The notes under the pieces: generated by a model | Database searches by the model: none | Told to the model about the DNA's origin: nothing | What the model saw: only the letters and a program-made list of their open reading frames with translations | Part shown: in pieces, positions 25,457 to 31,140 of the stretch | Layout of the letters: each line of letters starts with the position of its first letter | Numbering within the stretch: the first letter of the stretch is position 1 | DNA from: Candidatus Zixiibacteriota bacterium | GTDB taxonomy: Bacteria > Zixibacteria > MSB-5A5 > UBA10806 > 4484-95 | Assembly (NCBI GenBank): GCA_021159005.1 | Contig: JAGGSN010000148.1 | Location: 1-36,312 of the forward strand | Length of the DNA stretch: 36,312 nucleotides | Direction: 5' to 3' | Program-made: the position numbers and the translations under genes

Positions 25457-25630
25457 TCACTACTGTCCGGTCTTTTCAATTGAATTCTTCAATAATATAT
25501 AGTAAAGCGAAGCTTTCTTGAATTATAATCTAATGGCCGACAAGATGTTGGACGACTTCGATAAAAATTGGCATTTCATCTTATATTTTATTGAATATTT
25601 CGAGATAAGATTTGAGAAATTGATTCTAAT
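25457..25630 (+). repeat. Dispersed ~175-bp repeat (copy A)
   Basis: It aligns along its length with 36140-36312 and, in its first part, with the reverse complement of 1-100. Shared landmarks in order are TCACTACTGTCCGG at the start, GAAGCTT, GATGTTGG, CGAC, CGATAAA and CATC, then ATAAGATTT and an AATTGATT-type end. It carries no open frame. The copies differ by scattered substitutions, so they are old rather than recently duplicated. Confidence 0.85.
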
Positions 25631-25647
25631 TCGATGATTATCCATTT

Positions 25648-25830
25648 ACGTCATTCCCCCGCCGCGGCAGGAGAATCCAGGAATCCGCCAGCGGCGGACG
25701 GAACTGTTCGTTAACTCAAAGGTGGATAACAAGAATACCATGCCCTGTATCCGCAGACAGGCGGGCGCCGGCAGGCAGGAAGTGTCGGCATGACCAATCT
25801 CTGGACTCCCGTTTTCACGGGAGTGACGTT
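25648..25830. repeat. Palindromic interspersed repeat pair (REP-like)
   Basis: The left half begins ACGTCATTCCC and ends GAATCCAG (25648-25680). The right half (25801-25829) begins CTGGACTCCC and ends GTGACGT, so the two are inverted relative to each other. CTCCCGT (25806-25812) and ACGGGAG (25817-25823) form a clean 7-bp hairpin with a TTTC loop. GC-rich pieces such as CGGCGGAC and CAGGCGGGC lie between. This pattern is common in intergenic palindromic repeats of uncultured bacteria. Confidence 0.6.
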
Positions 25831-25958
25831 GATTATAATGTTCTGCAAAAGGCCGGACAGTAGTGAAATTTCATACAACTCGAATTATCCCGGGTTTTGC
25901 AGTAGAGCTGCAAATAAATTAAAATATTATTCGGAATTATATTGAACGCTTAGCAATA

Positions 25959-26563: not shown

Positions 26564-28420
26564 ATGAATTATCAAAAAGCGAAAGGCTTATATTATCTTC
26601 TTTTTTGTGTTATCATATTTATATTTTATATACCAAACTGTTTTGCTGACGATACTTCACTTGTCGAATGTTTATACGATTCGGTTTTCCTTGATATAAA
26701 ATCAGACTATACGGCTGAAACGATTATTAAGCAAAAACTTAAGTTCAACCGGCCGGGCAGCGTTAGATACTCATCAATCAGCGAATCGGTGAATCGCTAT
26801 GTCGAGTTTTCTATAATTGACATTAGATATATTTTCCCTGACAGTCAGACAATAATCATTAAAGATAACGACATTGAAACGGTCTCTGATTTTGGCTCCG
26901 GTTTTTATTCTAACAGCAAGACAAAGATTATTCATCTGCCGTCAACAAGAACCGGAGCGATTGCTGTAATCTCATATAAATTGAAATATAAAAGCCTTCT
27001 TTACCTGCCCCAGTTTTTTAGACAGAAAGATATGCCCACCTATAACTCTTATCTTGAGGTGAAATCAAAGACGCCTTATAAATACTTCCTCTCCGGGAAT
27101 GATTTTAATGTAAATGAAAACGACTCTCGATTAGTTTTATCTGCCGAAATGATTCCCGCTTATGTTTCCGAGCTTCACATGCCGCCAGTTGATTCTTACC
27201 GGGTGGTAATCAGGCCTGATATAATCGCCTATGATGACAATCAATACAGTTTCCAAAGCTGGGGAGATGTAGCTACATTTTACAACAATCTATCGGATGG
27301 AAAGATGATTCCCAATAATGAGATAACAGTTCTGGCGCAGAGATTATGCAAGGATGCGTTTAATTATACCGATTCTATAAAAGCTCTTTTTGATTTTGTT
27401 CGGGATAATATCAGATATGTTTCGGTCGAAATAGGCCGCGGCGAGTTTAGGCCGCTTCCAGCCGCTGATGTCTATCGCAAGAGATACGGCGATTGTAAGG
27501 ACAAATCAGCGCTGCTAATTGCTCTGTTGTCGGCTGTAGGAATCAAAGCCAATCCGGCCCTAATCGCAGCCCGAGATAAACCGGATGTTATAATCAGCCT
27601 TCCCTGGCCGGGTTATTTTAATCATGTAATCACCGCCGTAGATTATCAGGGCGATTACCTGTTTTTGGATGCCACTCAACTGACCTGCTGTTATGACCAT
27701 TTAGCCCCCTCCCTTAGAAACCGAAGAGCTTTAGTTTGCGGGACGGAGTCTTTTTTAGATTTCACTTTGACCTCTCCCTGCGATCCCGGCAATCAATTAG
27801 ATTTTACGCTGGTTTATAAAATTACCCCCAACGGGGATTTCCGCTGCGATGTCGATTTAAAACTTCAGAAAGATCCGGCATTCATTTACTACTCAATAAA
27901 TCACGATAAAGCTTTAGATGGAATACTTTACACATTTATGAGCGGCGGCTCTGCCAGATTAAGGTCGTCCGGTTTTCAGGTTGAACAAATAGAGCCGGAT
28001 TGCATCGAGGTTTCCGGTCATTTTTTCGGAGAACTGCCAAAAACCCAGCGAAGCAATAGACTGTTTGTTAATACGTTATCACCTTTTTACGATTATCTTA
28101 AATCATATTTTAATACTAAAACTCGGATTAATCCTTATTTGTTCGATTTCAACTTCAATATCAATGAAATAATCAGAATTGAGCTTTCGGATGCTTTCAA
28201 AGCAAACACAGATTCAATGGTTTTGGCTTTCAATGAACGCAGCCTGCAAGCAAATTTGTCATTAATAAGCGATGAAACAGGGTGTGTAATAAATAAGAAT
28301 TTCAAGCTCCTCGATTATACGCTTTCGGCTGAAAGATATAACAGGTTTTTCGAATTTCTCTTGATTGCATCGCAAATTCCTTATAATTCTATAGAAATAA
28401 TGCCGATGGACGCCAAATAG
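26564..28420 (+). CDS. DUF3857 plus transglutaminase-like protein, catalytic residues intact
   Basis: This 618-residue secreted protein has a hydrophobic leader (about 9-28) ending CFADD. A DUF3857 domain follows (about 35-215). A transglutaminase core comes next, with the catalytic triad visible: C311 in 'RYGDCKDKSALL', H354 in 'YFNHVITAV' and D369 in 'LFLDATQ'. The C-terminal 240 residues are beta-rich. DUF3857/transglutaminase proteins are common in Bacteroidetes and allied groups; their substrates are unknown. The next gene, a paralogue that has lost the catalytic residues, begins 11 bases later. No strong ribosome binding site precedes the ATG, only GAGAT. Confidence 0.85.
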   Translation: MNYQKAKGLYYLLFCVIIFIFYIPNCFADDTSLVECLYDSVFLDIKSDYTAETIIKQKLKFNRPGSVRYSSISESVNRYVEFSIIDIRYIFPDSQTIIIKDNDIETVSDFGSGFYSNSKTKIIHLPSTRTGAIAVISYKLKYKSLLYLPQFFRQKDMPTYNSYLEVKSKTPYKYFLSGNDFNVNENDSRLVLSAEMIPAYVSELHMPPVDSYRVVIRPDIIAYDDNQYSFQSWGDVATFYNNLSDGKMIPNNEITVLAQRLCKDAFNYTDSIKALFDFVRDNIRYVSVEIGRGEFRPLPAADVYRKRYGDCKDKSALLIALLSAVGIKANPALIAARDKPDVIISLPWPGYFNHVITAVDYQGDYLFLDATQLTCCYDHLAPSLRNRRALVCGTESFLDFTLTSPCDPGNQLDFTLVYKITPNGDFRCDVDLKLQKDPAFIYYSINHDKALDGILYTFMSGGSARLRSSGFQVEQIEPDCIEVSGHFFGELPKTQRSNRLFVNTLSPFYDYLKSYFNTKTRINPYLFDFNFNINEIIRIELSDAFKANTDSMVLAFNERSLQANLSLISDETGCVINKNFKLLDYTLSAERYNRFFEFLLIASQIPYNSIEIMPMDAK

Positions 28421-28430
28421 GAGGTGGAAT

Positions 28431-30326
28431 TTGCGGCGCCGAATATTCCTTAGCCTGATTATTATCCTGTTGCAATCTCCCGCTATTATTAGTCAGAGCT
28501 TGCCAAGTTTGCTCAAAATGCTGGCTCTTTATCCGGGTAAGGAAGCAGTCTATTTAAGCATCAACGACAGCACGGCTGTTGATTTTCAAAAAGATATTTA
28601 TATCTACAAGCGTTTTTTCCGTTCATTGGCTATGGTATTGCGTAAAGGTGAGGGCGGTATCTCGACTGCTGCGACTCCGGCTGTTTCAAACGATGATAAA
28701 ATTGAAGTCAGCGCTTACACTATTTCCCCGGAGGGCGACACGATAAATATATCCTATGAGGAAATGACATTTGTTGAACTATATGGCGGCAAGCAAAGAT
28801 ATATTATTTCATATCCGGATGCCAGAGCCGGGGCATTATTTATTTTAGAATGGACCATAGAATCCACCGAACCGGTATTCTCCGGCAGACGCTTTTTAGG
28901 ACGGTCATATCCGGCAGCTTCAAACCGCACGGTTATTAGCGCACCTGCTGACTGGGTGTTCAATTTCCTTATTCAGCCGAACTGTCTCTATAACCAGGAA
29001 AAATCGAGGAATTATGTACGAGGCGGGGAAATGTGGGTTAATTATATCTGGGAGGCGAGATCATTGCCAGGGATTCAATTCGAACCTGACAGCCCGCCTT
29101 TGTCACAATATATACCCTGCCTTTATTATGCTTTTTCTCATGATAGGCGCTGGCCTGATTTTAAAAGAGATAGAATTGACTGGCAATTGATAGCCCGGTC
29201 ATACGGCAATCACCTCGAATCAGTCGGTCAACCAGGCAAGATGGTGAAAAGCGAAGTTGATTTGCAGATTAGCGGCATATCCGACAAACGTGAAAAACTG
29301 AGCAAAATTACAAATTTCATTACTACAAATTTCAAGGCTGTATATTCGGATATTGACATTTCCGATTCTCCCGGCGACTTGCTCAATAGGGGATATGGTT
29401 CTCAGGCAGAGGCGGCTTTGTTATTGGGTGCGTTTTTGAAAGCCGTTCATATCTCTTGTGATTTTATCCTCATATCCACACGGGATAATGGCAACGTACT
29501 TAAAACATTGCCTGCCCTTTTTTATTTCAATCGCCTCTTGATAACCGCTTATATCAATTCGGATACAATCTGGATTGATCCATTCTACCAAGGTGCGCCG
29601 GCTGGCGTTTTGCCGCTTGAGGACCAGGCTGTTGAGGGCTTGAAGGTCGGCGATAATTTCAAGGATTTTATCACCACGCCAGTATCCGATTATAGAGAAA
29701 ACGGCCATGCTGTCCATCTGAAAATTTCTTTCGATGATAAAGGCGGGTTAACTGCCGATGGTGTCGAATTGTTTTCCGGCTCGCTGAATATAGAGGAAAA
29801 ATATATATTACAAAACCTTCCGTCTCAGGAAAGATTTGAACGCTGGTCAAAATTAACATTGAGTGGAATTCCCGGTTCATCGTTTAATGAACTTGAGTTT
29901 TCGGATTTTTATTCGGATATTAACCCTTTTCGGATAACTTATAAACTTTCAGCGCAGAATTATATTCAGCCTGATGATATGTTTTTATATATTCCTTTAG
30001 ATATTCTTGGCCGCTGGAAATTTACTAAAAAATATGAAAACCGGCAATTGCCCATTGAACTCGGACGGCCTCATTTGGAACAGGAAAGAATAACGATTGA
30101 AATACCGGCAGGATTTAAAGTGGATTATCTTCCCGAAAATTTCACGTTAAGCAGTTATCTCGGAGAGATATTCTCAGTAGTGGCAGTTACCGCCAATACA
30201 ATTACAATAACCCGCGGTTTAAGTATTAAATTTTTCAGGCTAAAAGCCAGCGAGGCAGGCAGTCTTAACGGCTTCTACAACACGGCTATGGACCAAGCGG
30301 CTAAATATATTGTACTCAGGAGATAA
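28431..30326 (+). CDS. DUF3857-type paralogue with a degenerate transglutaminase domain
   Basis: The 631-residue protein has a signal peptide (1-22) and the same layout as the preceding gene. Alignment of 'GYGSQAEAALLLGAFLKAVHI' with the neighbour's 'RYGDCKDKSALLIALLSAVGI' puts Q325 in the place of the catalytic cysteine. 'YFNRLLITAY' puts R368 in the place of the histidine. The aspartate (D383) remains. It is therefore probably not a transglutaminase and may act as a scaffold or partner of its neighbour. The start is TTG at 28431, with GGAGGT at 28420-28425 overlapping the previous stop, the strongest ribosome binding site in this part of the window. Confidence 0.82.
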   Translation: MRRRIFLSLIIILLQSPAIISQSLPSLLKMLALYPGKEAVYLSINDSTAVDFQKDIYIYKRFFRSLAMVLRKGEGGISTAATPAVSNDDKIEVSAYTISPEGDTINISYEEMTFVELYGGKQRYIISYPDARAGALFILEWTIESTEPVFSGRRFLGRSYPAASNRTVISAPADWVFNFLIQPNCLYNQEKSRNYVRGGEMWVNYIWEARSLPGIQFEPDSPPLSQYIPCLYYAFSHDRRWPDFKRDRIDWQLIARSYGNHLESVGQPGKMVKSEVDLQISGISDKREKLSKITNFITTNFKAVYSDIDISDSPGDLLNRGYGSQAEAALLLGAFLKAVHISCDFILISTRDNGNVLKTLPALFYFNRLLITAYINSDTIWIDPFYQGAPAGVLPLEDQAVEGLKVGDNFKDFITTPVSDYRENGHAVHLKISFDDKGGLTADGVELFSGSLNIEEKYILQNLPSQERFERWSKLTLSGIPGSSFNELEFSDFYSDINPFRITYKLSAQNYIQPDDMFLYIPLDILGRWKFTKKYENRQLPIELGRPHLEQERITIEIPAGFKVDYLPENFTLSSYLGEIFSVVAVTANTITITRGLSIKFFRLKASEAGSLNGFYNTAMDQAAKYIVLRR

Positions 30327-30327
30327 A

Positions 30328-31140
30328 ATGCCAGAATTGCCAGAGGTTGAGACAATAGTTAACGATATATCATCAGCTTTAATCGGACAGGTTGTTAAAA
30401 ACGCAAAGTTTTTGAATACTGCTATACGCGAAAAATGCAATCAGTATTCAGTCAAAGTTTTAAAAGGGAAAGAATTGAAAAGCATTTCTCGCAGCGGGAA
30501 GAATATCATATTTATATTTACGGGCGATATTGCGATAGTATGTCATCTTAAAATGACCGGTAAGTTGATAGTGGATTCGGAAATATCGTTAGCCAACAAA
30601 CATCGTCATTTTTTTATCGAATTTGCGAAGTCTCGGCTTGATTATTATGATGTCAGGAAATTCGGAAGAATTTGCATTATTGGCACTTCCAATCTGGCGA
30701 ATCATCCTAGACTAATGAAACTTGGCCCTGAACCATTCGAGATTTCAGCAAAGCATTTTGCCAATATCGCTAAAAAAAGGAATAAACCAATCAAACTGGT
30801 TCTACTTGATCAGGAGATAGTTGCCGGCTTGGGTAATATTTATACTGATGAATCCTTATTCAATGCCGGAATCAGACCATCTGTTAAAGCTTCCAAGATT
30901 TCAATAATCAGACTTATTCGGCTTCATGAATCAATAATAAGAGTTTTGGATTTTGCTATAAGTAAAAGAGGAACATCTGTCGATGACTATCTTGACGGCT
31001 TTGGTCAAAAGGGAAATTTCCAAAGCCTGCTTAAAATATATGGTAAAACCGGCCAAACATGTCCAAACTGCGGATTGCAGTTTAGACGGATTGTACTTGG
31101 AGGGCGATCTACTCACTATTGTCCGAAATGTCAGAAGTAA
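30328..31140 (+). CDS. mutM: Formamidopyrimidine-DNA glycosylase (Fpg/MutM)
   Basis: The 270-residue protein starts MPELPEVETI, the hallmark of Fpg, whose Pro2 (with Glu3) becomes the catalytic amine after methionine removal. K58 in 'SRSGKN' and 'VCHLKMTGKL' are conserved. The C-terminal zinc finger is complete (C245, C248, C265, C268) with R260 in 'GGRSTHYC', which contacts the flipped base. It excises oxidised purines such as 8-oxoguanine and nicks the strand. The ATG at 30328 is preferred to an upstream frame opening, because AGGAG at 30318-30322 sits at ideal distance and the family must start at this Pro. It follows the previous gene by one base and overlaps the next. Confidence 0.95.
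   Translation: MPELPEVETIVNDISSALIGQVVKNAKFLNTAIREKCNQYSVKVLKGKELKSISRSGKNIIFIFTGDIAIVCHLKMTGKLIVDSEISLANKHRHFFIEFAKSRLDYYDVRKFGRICIIGTSNLANHPRLMKLGPEPFEISAKHFANIAKKRNKPIKLVLLDQEIVAGLGNIYTDESLFNAGIRPSVKASKISIIRLIRLHESIIRVLDFAISKRGTSVDDYLDGFGQKGNFQSLLKIYGKTGQTCPNCGLQFRRIVLGGRSTHYCPKCQK

Follow-up and report, generated by a model that had tools for sequence, protein, structure and literature searches.

Tandem genes encoding one active and one catalytically dead paralogue are a general arrangement in the DUF3857/transglutaminase-like family, and here we describe such a pair in a 36,312-nucleotide contig of a Candidatus Zixiibacteriota bacterium (JAGGSN010000148.1, hereafter the window). The first protein, P1, carries an intact Cys-His-Asp triad and its neighbor, P2, does not. 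We assign a probability of roughly 0.6 to the reading that they serve as the active subunit and the pseudoenzyme subunit of a single exported module encoded on one transcript, an obligate pair that is probably heteromeric, because active and dead genes are inherited jointly, lie tightly spaced in either order, show selection on the dead chain, and have been paired in repeated origins. Enzyme/pseudoenzyme pairs are already known; the case in the DUF3857 family and its repeated origin appear to be new.

P1 (26564..28420, + strand, 618 aa) is a predicted secreted protein with DUF3857 and transglutaminase-like domains, identified by ORF, Pfam, alignment, AlphaFold and Foldseek analysis. Its triad is encoded on the + strand at 27494..27496 (C311, within a GDCKD motif), 27623..27625 (H354) and 27668..27670 (D369), each assigned by alignment and the AlphaFold model. 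After a spacing of 10 nt, P2 follows in tandem on the same strand (28431..30326, 631 aa; ORF, Pfam, BLASTP, alignment, AlphaFold and Foldseek). An earlier note, made from the sequence alone, had described both reading frames and the P1 triad as we find them, and had credited P2 with a ribosome binding site and a signal peptide. The former is a GGAGG Shine-Dalgarno motif read directly at 28420..28424 (+), which overlaps the P1 stop codon and lies 6 nt ahead of the P2 start, corrected here to TTG; this overlap makes translational coupling from P1 to P2 possible. The latter agrees with the hydrophobic, signal-like segments at the N-termini of both proteins. One nucleotide past the P2 stop lies the ATG of mutM (formamidopyrimidine-DNA glycosylase; 30328..31140, +), supported by start motif, Pfam and synteny; the mechanical ORF begins too early, at a TTG at 30310, and the canonical MPELPEVE start corresponds to the ATG at 30328. 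At each of the order's eight pair loci with downstream flank in sequence, the arrangement P1-P2-mutM is kept.

P1 and P2 are paralogues with 20% identity (BLASTP E = 1e-9). Both exceed the Pfam cut-off of 24.6 bits for DUF3857 (PF12969; 28.8 bits for P1 and 28.7 for P2), whereas for Transglut_core (PF01841, cut-off 23) P1 passes at 30.4 bits and P2 fails at 14.9; DUF3858 also matches P2 below its cut-off. Facing C311, H354 and D369 of P1 in both BLASTP and a multiple alignment are Q325 (29403..29405), R368 (29532..29534) and the retained D383 (29577..29579, all +), as the earlier note had proposed, and these three residues are invariant across nine P2 orthologues. We looked for an alternative Cys and His in the P2 site by alignment and secondary structure, and found no invariant Cys or His column in the nine orthologues; a hidden catalytic site is therefore not likely.

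Models from AlphaFold2, for which the input alignments contained relatives found in the GTDB scan, reached a mean pLDDT of 86.3 for P1 and 86.6 for P2. In these models a helix opens at C311 in P1 (311–324) and at Q325 in P2 (325–338), a strand opens at H354 (354–361) and at R368 (368–375), and the Asp follows the next strand (D369 and D383), so that alignment and predicted secondary structure both place the triad positions of the two proteins as equivalent. Foldseek returned the same best match for both models, 3KD4, along the whole length (TM 0.64/0.76 for P1 and 0.65/0.80 for P2). The P2 model additionally matches 3ISR, and the transglutaminase-like fold is kept despite the sub-threshold PF01841 score. 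Sequence searches of the PDB with the single proteins gave nothing useful and profile searches did yield matches; NCBIfam holds no model for the family. Both models also match Ost1/ribophorin I and M1 aminopeptidases, presumably via the beta domains.

The nearest solved structure may merit a different description from the one it was deposited under. 3KD4, the only solved DUF3857 protein we found, is BDI_1141 from Parabacteroides distasonis, deposited as a 'putative protease' and assigned by Pfam to DUF3857/DUF3858. Where active proteins have YGDCKD it reads YGTPLEI, with no Cys, and four of its relatives (31–52% identical to the fragment used) each directly adjoin an active GVCKD gene. On these grounds 3KD4 looks like a pseudoenzyme of a second ("GVC") lineage and not a protease. 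It shares its whole-length fold with P1 and P2 and, being Cys-less, can serve as a template for P2, although it belongs to the GVC pair lineage and is only 12–13% identical to either protein. 3KD4 has been listed among matches to the transglutaminase-like cysteine protease superfamily, in a passage that makes no mention of the missing Cys (PMC4866520).

Selection on the dead chain is evident. Between members of one congeneric pair, dN/dS (YN00) was about 0.12 for the dead gene and about 0.21 for the active one, and in a second pair it was 0.21 and 0.18, respectively. Identity within the family is 64/55% for P2 versus 50/37% for P1, and to the next family 33% versus 24%. These values strongly support P2 as a maintained pseudoenzyme under purifying selection and bear out the earlier view that it is not a decaying pseudogene. 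Across seven pairs of the order, conservation of P1 is highest in the catalytic core and lowest in the C-terminal domain (mean identity 26%), whereas P2 is at its most conserved in that domain (49%); the focus of conservation in P2 has shifted to the C-terminal beta domain. The loss of the triad in P2 is not a matter of chance: it is fixed throughout the order, and partners without the Cys are found across the class and also in other phyla.

The pair is kept as a unit from order to class, which the earlier note had suggested checking in related genomes. In 117 related genomes, the adjacent pairs retrieved consist of one CHD and one Cys-less gene, with one broken active copy as the exception. 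We then considered 113 tandem clusters, drawn from the class set, a GTDB scan (by active motif only) and even draws of Bacteroidota and Acidobacteriota via PF12969. Exactly one active member (Cys-His-Asp/Glu) stands with one or two Cys-less members in 110 of the 113. The Zixibacteria set was chosen for two neighboring matches; the Bacteroidota and Acidobacteriota draws were not chosen for pairing, and there the arrangement was found in 20/20 and 14/15 clusters. Pairing thus spans Zixibacteria, Acidobacteriota and Bacteroidota. The three exceptions are L193 with three actives, L249 with none and L119, whose active gene is broken. The first of these, in Ignavibacteria (L193:4284-10535), holds its three actives in tandem; every other cluster has at most one active.

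The two kinds of protein are sharply separated by their catalytic residues: the triad is CHD or CHE in all 207 actives, and the Cys motif is absent anywhere in the 137 dead proteins. They are alike in carrying an N-terminal hydrophobic segment (141/152 among actives and 123/137 among dead proteins; internal control, 11/344). The gap between active and dead genes has a median of −1 nt and is at most 50 nt in 93 of 103 pairs. The active gene comes first in 47 cases and the dead gene in 56, and because both orders are common, adjacency outlives rearrangement. Distances among active proteins correlate with those among their dead partners (Mantel r = 0.86, with 0/1000 permutations as high). Because the clusters are related, they cannot be treated as independent events, and the counts speak for generality rather than significance. 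Solo active genes are common in Omnitrophota, Poribacteria and others, indicating that some members of the family manage without a dead partner. Outside the order the Cys site accepts nearly any letter (A, S, R, P, G, Q, E and W among them). Some relatives have Ser-His-Asp at the site (SHD, family f16), and others the His and Asp.

In trees computed without the triad columns, one lineage takes in most dead proteins of Zixibacteria, Acidobacteriota and Bacteroidota, and a second group of dead proteins falls next to the actives that belong with it. An AU test rejects a single clade holding every dead protein (p-AU 0.0025); the trees contain long branches, whose expected effect is to draw dead proteins together, not apart. 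Active/dead pairs of their own occur in each of three architectural classes (main, GVC and TPR-fused). The TPR-fused class of Acidobacteriota (1220 aa) contributes four further tandem pairs of one CHD and one dead protein (L297, L298, L299 and L300), and its dead proteins group with the TPR actives. Active/dead pairing has at least two origins, and probably three. The genome of the window itself carries a second active/dead pair, of the GVC lineage, on another contig (C78:62496-64966; L084:5219-9204), whose dead copy has N-N-N in the triad positions. Relatives of 1250 aa were considered as active-dead fusions and ruled out, their N-terminal half being TPR; some of them are themselves tandem active/dead pairs, and no natural active-dead fusion was found.

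The closest working analogy for P1 and P2 is provided by the M16B metallopeptidase heterodimers, including TTHA1264/TTHA1265, SPH2681/SPH2682, AlbF/AlbE and mitochondrial MPP alpha/beta, in which two homologous chains, often encoded by neighboring genes in prokaryotes, carry the catalytic motif in one chain only, and the inactive chain is indispensable, since it contributes half of the chamber (PMC12731061). P1/P2 and their counterparts likewise are adjacent homologous genes, with exactly one active member in 110 of 113 clusters, and might by analogy form a complex; M16B differs in its unrelated fold and zinc chemistry, and P1/P2 are known here from genes and models. In the mechanism we propose, the module would reside in the periplasm or at the surface, and P1 would be either a transamidase or a cysteine-dependent amide hydrolase (a peptidase or an amidase). 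It would associate with P2 by way of the DUF3857 domain and the C-terminal beta domain, with P2 supplying half of the substrate-binding surface or controlling the P1 site, as the inactive M16B subunit does. The earlier note's interpretation, pseudo-enzyme regulation or scaffolding, is partly supported: the maintained pseudoenzyme and the conserved pair stand strongly, and P2 may regulate, scaffold or complete P1; the spread over several phyla and the repeated origin go beyond what that note could see. The Q325/R368/D383 pocket of P2, which does not vary within the order, may bind a ligand, or may form a salt bridge that replaces the His-Asp interaction. A broader and more tentative proposal, to which we give slightly less than even odds, is that the fold is a two-chain machine with a single catalytic site, that its pairs have at least three independent origins, and that the solved 'protease' is the non-catalytic chain.

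Mirrored active and dead trees are, however, also expected from joint inheritance without contact, and P2 could instead serve the same pathway as a secreted binding protein (a receptor, a decoy or a means of substrate capture) that holds a ligand in the old cleft, does not touch P1, and is co-expressed with it on account of the shared pathway. The invariance of Q325, R368 and D383 is consistent with such a role, as is the crystallization of the relative 3KD4 on its own, but the near freedom of the Cys-site letter outside the order is unlike a conserved pocket and conservation lies mainly in the C-terminal domain; we consider this reading unlikely. That P2 is an inhibitor or zymogen-like guard keeping P1 off until a signal arrives seems distinctly improbable: co-expression, the shared fold and the general precedent of inhibitory pseudoenzymes would suit it, yet solo actives manage with no guard and no sensing domain was seen in P2.

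The relatives that keep Ser-His-Asp or His and Asp raise the question of whether P2 retains some other catalytic activity, and here the absence of an invariant Cys or His from P2 and the variation of the site among subfamilies leave us with a very low expectation. Least credible to us is a frozen accident, in which one ancient duplication left a decayed copy carried along by linkage. It would account for the one large lineage that contains most dead proteins, but it is at odds with purifying selection, with the higher conservation of P2 than of P1 within the family, with adjacency kept in both gene orders, and with the rejected single origin and the separate TPR-fused pair, and we regard it as already largely refuted. 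An obligate, probably heteromeric pair of active and pseudoenzyme subunits is the reading that we prefer.

Among transglutaminase-like cysteine peptidases, 3ISR and TgpA (6G4H) share the core fold and a Cys-His-Asp type site with P1 and, unlike P1, lack a DUF3857 domain; we know of no Cys-less partner for either. In the non-subscription literature searched, DUF3857 occurs in a single paper, as a flanking gene of lolA and with no function given, and no paper on an active/dead pair in the family was found. The family is widespread and practically unstudied, its genes are usually interpreted one at a time, and the one structure solved is labelled a protease though it has no catalytic Cys. A fixed active-plus-dead pair tells which two proteins to co-express, and pairing may explain inactivity of a single chain. 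More broadly, the family is a repeated natural experiment in how enzymes gain pseudoenzyme partners.

In relatives (L065, L066 and L068-L071), a cassette of DUF6754 and three Pfam-less membrane proteins lies upstream of the pair, and this four-gene cassette is partly duplicated in tandem; no paper on DUF6754 was found in the literature search. The DUF6754 genes of the window's genome lie on other contigs and do not adjoin P1/P2. Neighboring genes pointed to no function for the pair, the cassette being unstudied and not beside the pair in this genome. Upstream of P1, promoter-like sites show a modest excess over shuffled sequence, and positions 25457–25866 are occupied by an element of 410 bp bounded by terminal inverted repeats of 20 nt that are 95% complementary. 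About 40 whole or partial copies of this element occur in the same genome, several of them at contig ends, which suggests a MITE-like repeat that interrupts the assembly.
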